In this document: positions 26,537-31,068 of the stretch, piece after piece
How positions within the stretch are numbered: position 1 is the first letter of the stretch
Layout: each line of letters begins with the position of its first letter
Assembly (NCBI RefSeq): GCF_030464365.1
Contig: NZ_VCYI01000021.1
Location: 1 to 35,689, forward strand
Length of the DNA: 35,689 nt
Direction of reading: 5' to 3'
From: Methanoculleus methanifontis
GTDB lineage: Archaea > Halobacteriota > Methanomicrobia > Methanomicrobiales > Methanoculleaceae
Notes under the pieces: generated by a model
Seen by the model: only the letters and a program-made list of their open reading frames with translations
Database searches by the model: none
Told to the model about the DNA's origin: nothing
Program-made: the position numbers and the translations under genes

Positions 26537-28177
26537 ATGGCAATAATCACGTTACCCTACCGGTACCTGGAACGGCTGGCCCGCACCGACCGGCAGACGA
26601 TCATCGACCGCGTTCCGATGATCGGGGCCGACATCGAGCGGATCGAGGAAGACCACGTGGACGTCGAGTTCTTCCCGAACCGGCCGGACCTCTACTCGCC
26701 CGAGGGCGTCGCCCGGGCGATGCGCGGTTTCCTCGGGCTGGAGGAGGGGCTTCCAGCCTACACCGTCCGCCCTTCCGGCATCACTTTCTCGGTCGACCCG
26801 GCCCTTGCCGATATCCGGCCGTTCCTCGGCTCGGCCGTGATCCGGAACGTCAACCTCGACGAAGAAGCGATCGAGAGCCTGATGGCCCTCCAGGAGTCCC
26901 TCCACTGGGCGGTCGGGCGCGGCCGGGGCAAGGTAGCGATCGGCGTCCACGACCTCGATACGGTCAACCCTCCCTTCCGCTACATCGCCTCGCCCCGGGA
27001 TCGGTCGTTCGTCCCGCTGGACTTCGAGCGGGAGATGACGATGGACGAGATGCTCGCCGACCACCCGAAGGGCCGGGACTACGCTCACCTGGTGGAGGAT
27101 TTCCCTAAGTTCCCGCTGATCGTCGATGCCGACGACCGGGTGCTCTCCTTCCCGCCGATCATCAACGGCGAGCTGACGCGGGTCACGGCGGCGACGAAGA
27201 ACATCCTCCTCGACTGCACCGGCACCGACAGACGGGCGGTGATGACGGCGGTAAACATCATCTGCACGGCGTTCATCGAGGCCGGGGCGACGGTCGAGAC
27301 GGTGACCGTTGACGGAGAAGAGATGCCGATGCTCGCCCCCGCAGAAAGGGTCGTCTCGGTTGCGGAGTGCTCCTCACTCCTTGGCCTCCCCCTCACGGCG
27401 GAGGAGATGTCGCGGCTCCTTCGCCGGATGCGCTTTGACGCCGAGCCCGACGGCGACTCACGGGTCCGGATCCTCGTCCCCTGCTACCGCTCGGACATCC
27501 TCCACGACTGGGACATCTTCGAGGACGTGGCGATCGCCTACGGCATCGAGAACTTCGATGCCGCCCTCCCGGCGACCTCGACCGTTGCACAGGAGCATCC
27601 GATCCCCGCGATCGAGGGAGCGGTCCGGTCGGTGATGACCGGCCTCGGGTACCTTGAGGTGATCCCGTTCACCCTCACGAATGAGCGGGTGCTCTACGTG
27701 AACATGCAGCGGGAGCCCGCTCCCGGAACCCTGCGGCTGCTCCACCCGATCAACGAGGAGCAGACGGTGGTCCGGACCGACCTCCTCCCCCTGCTGATGG
27801 AGATGCTTCTTGCGAACAAACACCGCGAACTCCCGCAGAGGCTCTTTACGGTGGGCGACGTGGTGGAGGACTGCGTCACCTCCCAGATGGCCGCGGCGGT
27901 GAGCATTTACCCGACGGCCGACTTCTCCGAGGCGTACGCGGCGGCGGACGTTCTCTGCCGCGAGCTCTCGCTCTCCTACACGGTCGCCGAGTCGGCTGAT
28001 CCGGCGTTCCTCGACGGCCGCCGCGGGGATATCGTCGTCGACGGAAAAATTGTCGGGGTCTTCGGGGAGATCCACCCCGCCGTTCTCGGGGCGTTCGACC
28101 TCGAGCACCCGGTCGCGGCGCTCGCGCTCGATCTCAGAGCCGTACCGGGATACCCCGTCCTGCCAGATACTCCTTGA
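26537..28177 (+). CDS. pheT: Phenylalanyl-tRNA synthetase beta subunit
   Basis: The 546-residue product is the archaeal-length PheT (about 550; the bacterial one is about 800 residues and has extra N-terminal EMAP and C-terminal anticodon-binding domains). It begins [14 protein letters not shown] and has the early [19 protein letters not shown] block, a B3/4-type middle region ([26 protein letters not shown]) and, after a B5 domain, a C-terminal synthetase-like domain ([33 protein letters not shown]). Its last 44 bases overlap the 3' end of hisF, which is on the other strand. Confidence 0.95.
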
Positions 28178-28940
28178 CCTGGCGGACGGTGAACTCGCCG
28201 TAGTGGAAGACACTTGCCGCGAGGCAGGCGTCGGCCTTTCCTTCCGTGAACCCCCCGTAGAAGTGTTCGAGCGTGCCCACGCCGCCGCTCGCGACCACCG
28301 GGATGCCGACCGCCTCCGAGACCGCTCTCGTGATCGGGATGTCGAACCCCTCCTTTGTTCCGTCGGCCTCCATGCTGGTGAGCAGGATCTCGCCCGCCCC
28401 GCGCTCCTCCGCCTCTCTCGCCCAGGCGACGGCGTCAAGCCCCGTGCCCCGGCTCCCGCCGTGGGTCACGACCTCGTACCAGCACTCCTGGCCGTCAGGG
28501 AGGGTTATCGGCGTCTTTCCCGGTGCCGTCTCGTAGTTGCGCCGGACATCGACGGCGACGACGACGCACTGGGTTCCGAACCGTTCTGCGCCCTGCGAGA
28601 TCAGGTTCGGGTCGGCGACGGCGCTCGAGTTGATGCTTACCTTGTCCGCGCCCGCCCGGAGGATCTGTTTCATGTCCTCGATCGTCCGGATGCCGCCGCC
28701 GACGGTGAGCGGGAGAAAGAGCTGGTCGGCAGCCCGCTGCACGACATCGATGATGGTGCCCCGGTCCTCCCTGGTGGCGGTGATGTCGAGGAAGACCACC
28801 TCGTCCGCGCCCTGCTCGTTGTAGCGCTGGGCGAGTTCCACGGGATCGCCCGCGTCGCGCAGGCCGACGAAGTGCGTGCCCTTGACAACCCGCCCGTCCT
28901 TGAGGTCCAGGCAGGGGATGATCCGCTTGGTCAAAACCAT
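28134..28940 (-). CDS. hisF: Imidazole glycerol phosphate synthase, cyclase subunit
   Basis: HisF with HisH makes imidazole glycerol phosphate and AICAR in histidine biosynthesis. The 268-residue (beta/alpha)8 barrel starts [19 protein letters not shown]; the Asp in CLDL and the one in VVVAVDVRR (about residue 130) are the catalytic pair. Phosphate-binding blocks TVGGGIRT and VASGGVGT are present. It is the only his gene in the window and faces pheT tail to tail. Confidence 0.96.
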
Positions 28941-29090
28941 GCGTAGTGATTTTGGGGCGGAGGTGATGAGGGTTTGCCTATGCGACTGGCCGAAGGTGCG
29001 ATGTTCCTCTGGAACAGAGCTGGAGCACCGTTAGGAACGACGTTCCATGGGAACGGAGTTCGAGCACCGGAGGTGCGAGGTGCGGGGGCA

Positions 29091-29127
29091 GGAGCAGGAG
29101 AAAACGCGTAGCGTTTTCGACTTGCGA
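29091..29127 (+). repeat. Hairpin repeat copy 1 (AAAACGC-GTA-GCGTTTT)
   Basis: GGAGCAGG and GA, then the perfect hairpin AAAACGC/GCGTTTT with loop GTA, then CGACTTGCGA. Identical over its length to copy 2. Confidence 0.8.
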
Positions 29128-29173
29128 CGGGCGGGAGCGGAGCGAGCGTCCGGAGTTTGAGCGCCGAAGGGCA

Positions 29174-29218
29174 GGAGCAGGAGAAAACGCGTAGCGTTTT
29201 CGACTTGCGAAGATTCAT
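29174..29218 (+). repeat. Hairpin repeat copy 2 (loop GTA)
   Basis: Same sequence as copy 1, extended on the right by AGATTCATGA, an extension it shares in part with copy 3. A GGAGCACAGGCAC stretch follows and has a near match after copy 3. Confidence 0.8.
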
Positions 29219-29287
29219 GAGAACCGGAGCACAGGCACCGTTGCTGCGGCCCGTAAACGAGAGGCGACGATCGCTACCGATACCGGA

Positions 29288-29370
29288 CTTCGCGTCTTCG
29301 CGTCTTCGCGTCTTCGCGTGAGACTGTATTGCTGCCCCTTAGACCCTTGCCTCACGCGAAGCCGCGAAGG
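29288..29370. repeat. CTTCGCGT tandem repeat with inverted partner, copy of the 8647 element
   Basis: CTTCGCGT occurs four times in tandem at 29288-29319, followed by GAGACTGTA as at 8647. The right arm CTCACGCGAAGCCGCGAAGG at 29351-29370 is identical to 8691-8710. The left arm has been replaced by the tandem expansion. Confidence 0.8.
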
Positions 29371-29407
29371 GCGCGAAGAACGACTTTCCCGAAGGGTGCG
29401 ACGGGCG

Positions 29408-29452
29408 GGAGCAGGAGAAAACGCTACGCGTTTTCGACTTGCGAAGATTCAT
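29408..29452 (+). repeat. Hairpin repeat copy 3 (loop inverted to TAC)
   Basis: Same flanks and stem as copies 1 and 2, but the loop is TAC, the reverse complement of GTA. AAGATTCAT follows, as in copy 2. Confidence 0.8.
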
Positions 29453-29487: not shown

Positions 29488-29633
29488 GAGACAGGGGAGG
29501 GGGGCGTGCCCCCCTCGAAGAACTTCGTTCTTCTCGTGCTCCGTTCCTGCGGAACATCGCACCTCGCACCTCCGGTGCTCATGCTCCTGCCCTTCGGCCA
29601 GTCGCACTCCCCAATGGCGATATCCGATGGAAA
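29488..29633. repeat. G/C hairpin plus GGCGATATCC motif, copy of the 8501-8568 element
   Basis: GAGACAGG, then GAGGGGGGC (29497-29505) and GCCCCCCTC (29508-29516) as a hairpin, and further on GGCGATATCCGATGGAAA at 29616-29633. The order and orientation match the repeat cluster near 8.5 kb. Confidence 0.7.
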
Positions 29634-29841: not shown

Positions 29842-31068
29842 ATGGAGTCAGGAGATCTAAAAATTGCATGGGCGCGGCAGTACATGCCGGTACTCTCGTC
29901 CATTCGGAAGCGTTTCGTCGAGGAGAAGCCGTTTGCAGGCATGACTATCGGCATGGCCCTGCACGTCGAGGCGAAGACCGCGGTGCTGGTCGAGACGCTC
30001 GCAGCAGGCGGCGCCGAGGTGCACATCACGGGGTGCAACCCCCTCTCGACCCAGGACGATGTCTCTGCGGCGCTCGATACCCGGGAAGGGGTTCACTCCT
30101 ACGCCCGCCGGGGCGCCAACGTCGAGGAGTACTACGCGGCCATCGACCGGGTGCTCGACGCCCGCCCCGCGATCACCATCGACGACGGGATGGACCTGAT
30201 CCACCGCATTCACACCGAGCGGCGGGAGGTGCTGGACTCGATCATCGGCGGGTGCGAGGAGACCACGACCGGCATCCACCGGCTCCGCGCGATGGCACAG
30301 GACGGGGCGCTCAGGTTCCCGGTCGTCGCCGTCAACGACACCCCGATGAAGCACTTCTTCGACAACGTCCACGGCACCGGCGAGAGTTCGCTCGCGTCGA
30401 TCATGATCACCACGAACGTCCTCATGGCCGGAAAGCGGTTCGTCGTCGCCGGCTACGGCTACTGCGGCCGGGGGCTTGCCCAGAAGGCCCGGAGCCTCGG
30501 CGCCCGCGTCATCGTGACCGAGGTCGATCCCCGGCGGGCGCTGCAGGCGCACATGGACGGGTTCGACGTCATGACGATGGACGACGCGGCACCCCTCGGC
30601 GATATTTTCGTCACCACCACCGGGAATACGAGCATCCTCACCGAACGGCACTTCCCGATCCTGAAGGACGGCGCGATCCTCGCGAACGCCGGCCACTTCA
30701 ACGTTGAGATCGATGTCGACTGGCTCGCGGCGCACGCGGCTTCCACCGTCCACCGGGACGGTGTCGACACCTACGTTCTCGATGGCAAAGTTGTCCACGT
30801 CCTTGCCGAAGGAAGGCTCGTGAACCTTGCGACGCCGAAGGGTATGGGCCACCCCGTCGAGGTCATGGACCTGAGTTTCGCCGTCCAGGCGCTCTCCGCC
30901 GAGTTCATCGCGAAGCACGGCCGCGAACTCGCTCCCGGCGTGCACGACGTCCCGTCCGCCATCGATGAGGGGATCGCGCGGCTGAAACTCGACGCGCTCG
31001 GGCTCTCGATTGACCGGCTGACGCCCGAGCAGGAAACTTATATGAGCAGCTGGACGATCGGGACGTAA
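29842..31068 (+). CDS. ahcY: S-adenosylhomocysteine / S-inosylhomocysteine hydrolase
   Basis: This enzyme removes the product inhibitor of methyl transfer by splitting S-adenosylhomocysteine; the Methanocaldococcus homologue was reported to prefer S-inosylhomocysteine, so the substrate here may be the deaminated form. The 408-residue product starts MESGDLKIAW with GGTGG ahead of the ATG at 29842. It has HVEAKTAVLVETL, NDTPMKHFFDNVHGTGES (with the conserved Lys and Asp of the active site) and the NAD-binding VVAGYGYCGRGLAQKA. The canonical GYGDVGKG reads GYGYCGRG here, as is common in archaea. The C-terminus lacks the long tail of bacterial enzymes. An in-frame extension upstream from 29710 is improbable. 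Confidence 0.92.
   Translation: MESGDLKIAWARQYMPVLSSIRKRFVEEKPFAGMTIGMALHVEAKTAVLVETLAAGGAEVHITGCNPLSTQDDVSAALDTREGVHSYARRGANVEEYYAAIDRVLDARPAITIDDGMDLIHRIHTERREVLDSIIGGCEETTTGIHRLRAMAQDGALRFPVVAVNDTPMKHFFDNVHGTGESSLASIMITTNVLMAGKRFVVAGYGYCGRGLAQKARSLGARVIVTEVDPRRALQAHMDGFDVMTMDDAAPLGDIFVTTTGNTSILTERHFPILKDGAILANAGHFNVEIDVDWLAAHAASTVHRDGVDTYVLDGKVVHVLAEGRLVNLATPKGMGHPVEVMDLSFAVQALSAEFIAKHGRELAPGVHDVPSAIDEGIARLKLDALGLSIDRLTPEQETYMSSWTIGT

Follow-up and report, generated by a model that had tools for sequence, protein, structure and literature searches.

Probable in-place inversion of a hairpin loop in a dispersed family of hairpin arrays of Methanoculleus

Introduction

Interstrand template switching at short palindromes is a documented cause of very small inversions. 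In the yeast cases described in PMC8604942, template switching between short inverted repeats homogenises the arms and inverts the spacer, as in the change from gaa to ttc in TAT2, and the spacer inversions reported there were found only with arms longer than 9 bp. Loop inversions are also described in RNA genes, bacterial ones included (PMC8794818), and the small hairpin inversions described for chloroplast DNA are a further known form of loop inversion. In the yeast and RNA genes a perfect short inverted repeat has its spacer of a few bases turned into the reverse complement, while the flanks are unaltered and the arms still match.

Palindromic repeats of other kinds are widely dispersed in prokaryotic genomes. 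Rickettsia palindromic elements (RPE) are palindromic repeats that insert in frame within protein-coding genes. REP sequences and the BIMEs that they form, which go with a RAYT transposase (TnpA-REP), are many dispersed palindromes in high copy, mostly intergenic and in mosaic clusters; they are described as mosaics with linkers, the palindromes of which are kept palindromic by complementary changes (PMC2817692).

Here we analyse a stretch of 35,689 nucleotides from Methanoculleus methanifontis (the window), in which the original prediction had singled out three hairpins with identical arms, two with the loop GTA and one with TAC, and had proposed that the centre of the palindrome had flipped. 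The loop flip itself is a known kind of mutation, and the part that deserves follow-up is the family of arrays to which these hairpins appear to belong. Genomes (G) and loci (L) are cited below by our own numbers.

Results

Three copies of one hairpin in the hisF–ahcY intergenic region

The source genome comprises 2.61 Mb in 30 contigs. In the window the hairpins lie between a gene for a histidine biosynthesis protein (hisF-like, His_biosynth; 28134–28940, minus strand) and an adenosylhomocysteinase-like gene (AdoHcyase, AdoHcyase_NAD; 29842–31068, plus strand), whose product has at most 96% protein identity to Methanoculleus genomes. Exact searching of the window places AAAACGCGTAGCGTTTT, with the loop GTA, at 29101–29117 and 29184–29200, and AAAACGCTACGCGTTTT, with the loop TAC, at 29418–29434; a fourth match to this 17-mer, at 31067, has 2 mismatches and a right arm that does not pair with the left. 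The identity of the arms and the split of the loops into two GTA and one TAC are borne out. Chance yields a mean of 0.04 matches at up to 2 mismatches over 100 dinucleotide shuffles, none of which reached four. The arms had been read as AAAACGC and GCGTTTT, which do pair perfectly, but pairing runs one base further and gives arms of 8 bp, GAAAACGC and GCGTTTTC.

On the plus strand, copies 1 and 2 are therefore GAAAACGC-GTA-GCGTTTTC at 29100–29118 and 29183–29201, with normal (GNA) loops, and copy 3 is GAAAACGC-TAC-GCGTTTTC at 29417–29435, with an inverted (TNC) loop; this copy was also recovered as flipped in our scan of the genus. An oriented linker, GGAGCAGGAG, stands 5' of copy 1 at 29091–29100 (plus strand), its final G being the first base of the arm, and is repeated before copies 2 and 3 at 29174–29183 and 29408–29417. 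On the 3' side the linker CGACTTGCGA occupies 29118–29127 (plus strand), its initial C being the last base of the arm, and recurs after copies 2 and 3 at 29201–29210 and 29435–29444. Both flanks are common to all three copies, which makes them a direct repeat with nothing inverted but the 3-base loop.

The three copies are part of a longer intergenic array, which runs in one orientation over 29002–29210 and 29408–29444 and in the opposite orientation over 29517–29578. The first part also holds, on the plus strand, the hairpin TGTTCC-TCT-GGAACA (29002–29016), upstream of a linker and with a loop that is neither GNA nor TNC, and GCACC-GGA-GGTGC (29064–29076), with a GNA loop. Read on the minus strand, the opposite part consists of GAAGAAC-GAA-GTTCTTC (29517–29533), GTTCC-GCA-GGAAC (29543–29555) and a further GCACC-GGA-GGTGC (29566–29578). 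Repeats of CGCGTCTTCGCG and CGCGAAGCCGCG occupy 29285–29370 of the same intergenic region, and similar phrases flank several other arrays. Scans of the window with Rfam (at the gathering threshold) and for tRNA genes gave no match.

A survey of loops across the source genome, as had been proposed, found nine copies of the 17-mer with the loops GTA, TAC, GAA/TTC and AAA/TTT according to strand. A scatter of many unrelated loops, which would speak against a flip, was not seen for this hairpin type: its normal loop is a family (GAA, GGA, GCA, GTA and occasionally AAA) rather than a single sequence, and the TNC exceptions are reverse complements of GNA. Eighty named loci added one match to the 17-mer, at L145, where the hisF–ahcY intergenic sequence is the same as that of G008 (L066).

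An oriented array family with a preferred loop

We read the organisation of the arrays from 29 sample stretches of the source genome with at least two linkers, a few of which are coding sequence. A grammar is repeated on one strand: TGCGAC, hairpin, GGAGNNNGAG, hairpin, GA-N-TGCGAC. The stems are diverse (GCACC/GGTGC, GAAGACC/GGTCTTC, GAAACCC/GGGTTTC, GAAAACGC/GCGTTTTC, GTTCC/GGAAC and others) and the loops much less so. Among non-redundant hairpins that follow GGAGNNNGAG and have arms of 5–6 bp, 145 of 169 carry GNA (82) or GNNA (63), the remainder being 8 ANA, 11 ANNA and 5 other loops, with no TNC or TNNC. In a set that includes loci fetched as flipped, 289 of 290 post-linker hairpins with arms of at least 5 bp close with C-G, and 58 of 65 GNNA loops have C or T as their third base. 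Hairpins ahead of the linker obey the loop rule less (GNA/GNNA in 115 of 160, arms of 5–7 bp). A GNA/GNNA loop closed by C-G on the GGAGNNNGAG strand is the rule of the family in the sense of a strong tendency. The sample from the source genome also contains 112 linkers, out of 188, with no perfect hairpin of at least 4 bp behind them, so that either the grammar has often decayed or linkers were matched by chance.

The pattern of linker plus GNA hairpin with 7–8 bp arms has 763 matches, tandem copies being counted separately, in 26 of the 35 genomes of the genus. Across the order it occurs in 41 of 232 genomes; beyond Methanoculleus, a single genome from the same family exceeds three matches, with 23. 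We regard the three hairpins of the window, with fair though limited confidence, as units of this dispersed Methanoculleus family, the centre of copy 3 having been inverted in place.

Flipped loops across the genus

The loop has a preferred orientation with respect to the linker, which allows flips to be recognised within a single genome. In post-linker hairpins with 7–8 bp arms, TNC stands where GNA is the rule in 35 of 798 pattern matches (4.4%; 35 TNC against 763 GNA, with a pattern that tolerates imperfect arms and with tandem copies counted separately), spread over 15 of the 35 genomes. Nine of the 35 are in G009, three of them in one tandem set, and none in G006 or G007; the rate of flipping may differ between lineages. 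Thirty of the 35 flipped matches were fetched as loci, most of which come with no alignment to another genome across that hairpin. TNC loops also occur ahead of the linker, at L048 (7740), L109 (8733), L346 (1252 and 1301), L124 (257) and L286 (1822); four of these have arms of 6 bp (three loci, two cases being in one tandem set), one has 7 and one has 9.

Several flips can be placed at orthologous or tandem sites. In the hisF–ahcY region the palindrome GGGGAGGGGGGA-NNN-TCCCCCCTCCCC has the loop TGC in G006 (L064) and GCA in G008 (L066), both 20-base flanks being identical; over the fetched loci there are eight TGC and two GCA. This is a second dispersed palindrome, often adjoining GTCAGCCCCTCCCC (L064 at 1463–1489, L066, L050, L059, L062, L093, L098 and L102). 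The hairpin CGACGTTCC-GACA-GGAACGTCG of G025 (L319) has TGTC in G009 (L320) with flanks 95% alike, and read on the array strand the reversed loop is that of G025. Within G026, L139 holds two adjoining 51-base units that are identical except for GAA in one and TTC in the other. Thus in L064/L066, L319/L320 (with the 95% flanks) and the L139 tandem pair the spacer is the reverse complement of the other allele, and arms and flanks are kept.

At the L117 site, read in 12 genomes, GAA is found in nine, TTC only in G012, and the hairpin is missing from two, and a 32-base right flank is shared almost without change by G012, G000, G006, G007 and G011. The arms at L117 differ from those of G006 besides the loop; they have GCG in some genomes and GTG in others, so that a paired change of the arms occurred there too. 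The last copy in the window, with TAC, shares its right flank, CGACTTGCGAAGATTCATTGAAAC, with the last copy in G003, which has GTA; the first copy in G003 has TAC. In a comparison of G006 with G007 over about 190 kb, 63 GNA/TNC hairpins with arms of at least 5 bp and a C-G closing pair were considered; 37 were unaligned, and the 26 that aligned, mostly outside arrays, included none with a flip.

The TNC exceptions to the loop rule are exact reverse complements, and several orthologous sites and one tandem pair differ only or mainly by the loop, from which it follows that the centre was flipped. The proposal that the palindrome centre turned over in place is thus supported, as judged from sequence, both by loop polarity relative to the linkers and by orthologous sites with conserved flanks.

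Arm length and co-variation of the arms

Counting both hairpin positions, flips number 0 of 157 with 5 bp arms and 4 of 102 with 6 bp arms (P = 0.02). Restricting the count to stretches not chosen for flips gives 0 of 91 at 5 bp and 4 of 75 at 6–8 bp (P = 0.04), and counting TNT/TNNT as flips of ANA/ANNA gives 2 of 175 at 5 bp and 6 of 120 at 6 bp (P = 0.07). One TNC case (L323) and one TNNC case (L268), each with 4 bp arms, were left out as too short. Flips look rarer with short arms, a trend that fits template switching, although the evidence is modest, the events being few. A clean threshold of arm length, based on 0 flips in 145 post-linker hairpins with 5–6 bp arms, was considered and dropped because the pre-linker hairpin flips at 6 bp.

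Arms also change in concert. Where aligned hairpins have arms of 6 bp or longer that differ between genomes, both arms changed and yet kept pairing in 23 of 45 distinct pairs from arrays, compared with 23 of 1331 elsewhere, a class in which some array hairpins remain. Hairpins can also be swapped whole within constant linkers, since at the hisF–ahcY locus GAAAACGC-gta-GCGTTTTC in G007 (L062) stands where G011 (L065) has GCACC-gcca-GGTGC. Template switching that homogenises the arms, selection for pairing and hairpin exchange may each have a part in the co-variation.

Discussion

How the loops were inverted

The mechanisms put forward in the original prediction, recombination within the hairpin and cruciform processing, are possible; interstrand template switching is instead the documented cause of such changes and needs no dedicated enzyme. 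We consider it the most likely mechanism of the loop flip, and a probable rather than a secure one. During copying of the palindrome the nascent strand would quit its template within one arm, anneal to the complementary arm on the opposite strand, copy the loop there and rejoin the original template in the second arm. Perfect arms would be unaltered by the switch and the centre alone inverted; diverged arms would be re-matched by the same switch, which would help to explain the co-variation of arms. Template switching accounts for the exact reverse complement together with the unaltered flanks. Against it stands the arm length of the yeast spacer inversions, all of which had arms longer than 9 bp.

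A different route to the same product is a reversed palindromic cassette, derived from an array of opposite orientation and inserted or converted through the short homologies of arms and linkers. Both array orientations coexist in the intergenic region of the window, and whole-hairpin swaps within constant linkers, as between L062 and L065, could imitate a flip. In addition, the orientation of the array reverses exactly at a hairpin in L128, L134 and L138 (near position 1500), with the linkers to the left and right on opposite strands, and probably likewise in L118, the ortholog of L134. As the array to the right of the hairpin is reversed at L128, L134 and L138, the loop is normal for the right-hand side, and the reversal looks as if a strand exchange or strand switch had occurred inside the palindrome; a reversed cassette explains such junctions better. 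However, L064/L066 and L319/L320 keep both flanks and identical arms, so that the loop alone changed, and at L139 the tandem neighbour has the same flanks. An exchange should moreover ignore arm length, yet flips look rarer at 5 bp, on the modest evidence given above. As a general account of the flips we therefore think a reversed cassette rather unlikely, with template switching the preferred reading.

A cruciform might be extruded, have its four-way junction or its loops cut, and be religated with the centre turned round. The product would be identical, and perfect palindromes with 3-base loops are extrudable in principle. Arms of 8 bp are, however, short for cruciform extrusion, and resolution alone, we reason, does not reverse the centre; we judge this route improbable. 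A site-specific invertible switch is also unlikely for a segment of 3–4 bp with the same lesion at many loci.

Errors of sequencing, PCR or assembly at palindromes deserve mention in that most genomes used are in many contigs and many of the named relatives are MAGs, and template switching in vitro can be provoked by hairpins. The flipped loop TCC at L113 is, however, common to G000 and G012 (G003 has TCT there) and so was inherited, and the one-contig genome G003 has a flipped copy at 751629, which makes an artefact very improbable. Independent point substitutions within the loop deserve hardly any credence. Single-base changes do occur, with 292 one-base comparisons among 3-base loops (GCA and GGA in tandem arrays, for example). 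Where all three loop bases differ, however, exact reverse complements make up 12 of 14 comparisons within arrays, or 4 of 5 distinct pairs, when arms are 6 bp or longer and flanks have a similarity of 80% or above (pairs counted in both directions and some loci overlapping). The same test on the non-array class gave reverse complements in 6 of 12 comparisons (3 of 6 distinct pairs), and of these three pairs two are array family or G-run palindrome missed by the filter and one is chance-like.

Comparison with described systems

Unlike the known spacer inversions, the Methanoculleus flips recur in a dispersed archaeal repeat family with a preferred loop polarity, so that a single genome suffices to recognise them and no outgroup is needed. 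Their arms are mostly 6–9 bp, with 12 in the G-run palindrome. Loops of known orientation make each genome a recorder of strand switching at short hairpins, and no pedigrees are needed to count flips in an archaeon according to strand, arm length and the direction of replication.

The arrays resemble REP/BIME with RAYT in being many dispersed palindromes in high copy, in mosaic clusters with linkers, apparently mostly intergenic, and with arms that change in a complementary way. They differ in their linkers, GGAGNNNGAG and TGCGAC, in the lack of a constant GTAG (or CGTC) end from the arrays read, in having many different stems under one linker grammar, and in their archaeal host; GACG stands beside the upstream hairpin in some array units only. 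A search for the Y1 transposase domain PF01797 (E at most 0.001) found none in the source genome nor in 28 of the 35 genomes overall, and matches in 7; the control search was positive in 5 of 14 known genomes. The array-rich genomes G000, G006, G007, G009, G011, G012, G014, G024, G025, G026 and G031 have no PF01797 match. We rejected a Y1 transposase as the driver of the arrays, as it is missing from most array-rich genomes, and we rejected identity with REP/BIME and RAYT, as defined in the accounts of PMC3733652 and PMC2817692, because the arrays read have no constant GTAG end and PF01797 is mostly absent.

Compared by description with RPE, the Methanoculleus elements are archaeal arrays of several hairpins with GNA/GNNA loops, and there is one in-frame case. 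An OsmC-like reading frame holds in-frame arrays in G026 (L139, about 1435–1555), G025 (L243) and G024 (L280), and the gene is array-free in G008, G009, G012, G014 and G031, all this being one locus. In G026 the 51-base tandem unit amounts to 17 codons, and the loop flip alters two residues.

Loop type and folded single-stranded DNA

GNA and GNNA loops on G-C pairs are described as extraordinarily stable DNA mini-hairpins, d(GCGAAGC) having a melting temperature of 78 degrees C (PMC4686876), and the stability of a GAA loop is put 6 degrees above that of GTA (PMC6479982). Like these mini-hairpins, the arrays have a GNA/GNNA loop closed by C-G, and the heptamer GCGAAGC is itself contained in AAAACGCGAAGCGTTTT, the usual form of the GAAAACGC/GCGTTTTC stem. 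The mini-hairpins are known as oligonucleotide chemistry, whereas the arrays are a genomic motif. Nearest-neighbour folding energies for GTA and TAC loops are equal, with DNA and RNA parameters alike.

Stable GNRA tetraloops of RNA require A or G as their third base, as only a minority of the GNNA loops here have, and this points to folded single-stranded DNA over RNA. An RNA element was accordingly not favoured, the GNNA loops counted above having C or T at that position and both array orientations occurring in one intergenic region. Judging by loop type and strand polarity, the arrays probably work as elements that fold in the form of single-stranded DNA, or are descended from such elements. 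Should the GNA/GNNA rule reflect selection at the level of single-stranded DNA, then a motif known, as far as we are aware, mainly from oligonucleotide work would have a use in genomes, and the arrays would be a starting point for finding an archaeal process that works on single strands in folded form.

As a tentative proposal, towards which we lean less than away, the arrays would form an undescribed class of Methanoculleus repeat, copied or maintained in the form of single-stranded DNA, with hairpins of extra-stable GNA/GNNA loop alternating on one strand between oriented linkers, spreading without a Y1 transposase, entering a gene in frame and having hairpins as points of strand exchange (loop flips, whole-array reversals and hairpin swaps).

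Descriptions in the literature and tandem expansion

We found no description of the arrays among the matches listed for the literature searched, a coverage in which most subscription journals were outside. The M. marisnigri genome paper gives 0 CRISPR repeats, and the portion of its text available to us describes no such arrays (PMC3035220). Tandem-repeat families of M. marisnigri are included in a survey of prokaryotic satellites (PMC6749651). The families named there are perhaps expanded units of the hairpin arrays.

Array units expanded into tandem repeats are seen in G007 at C1:211585–212088, with a 68-base period, and in G006 at C14:355973–356630, with a 63-base period. Further tandem arrays in G007 lie at C1:897009–897792 (63-base period) and C1:2023224–2023563 (52-base period). 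In the tandem arrays of 63-base period the loop varies between GCA and GGA.
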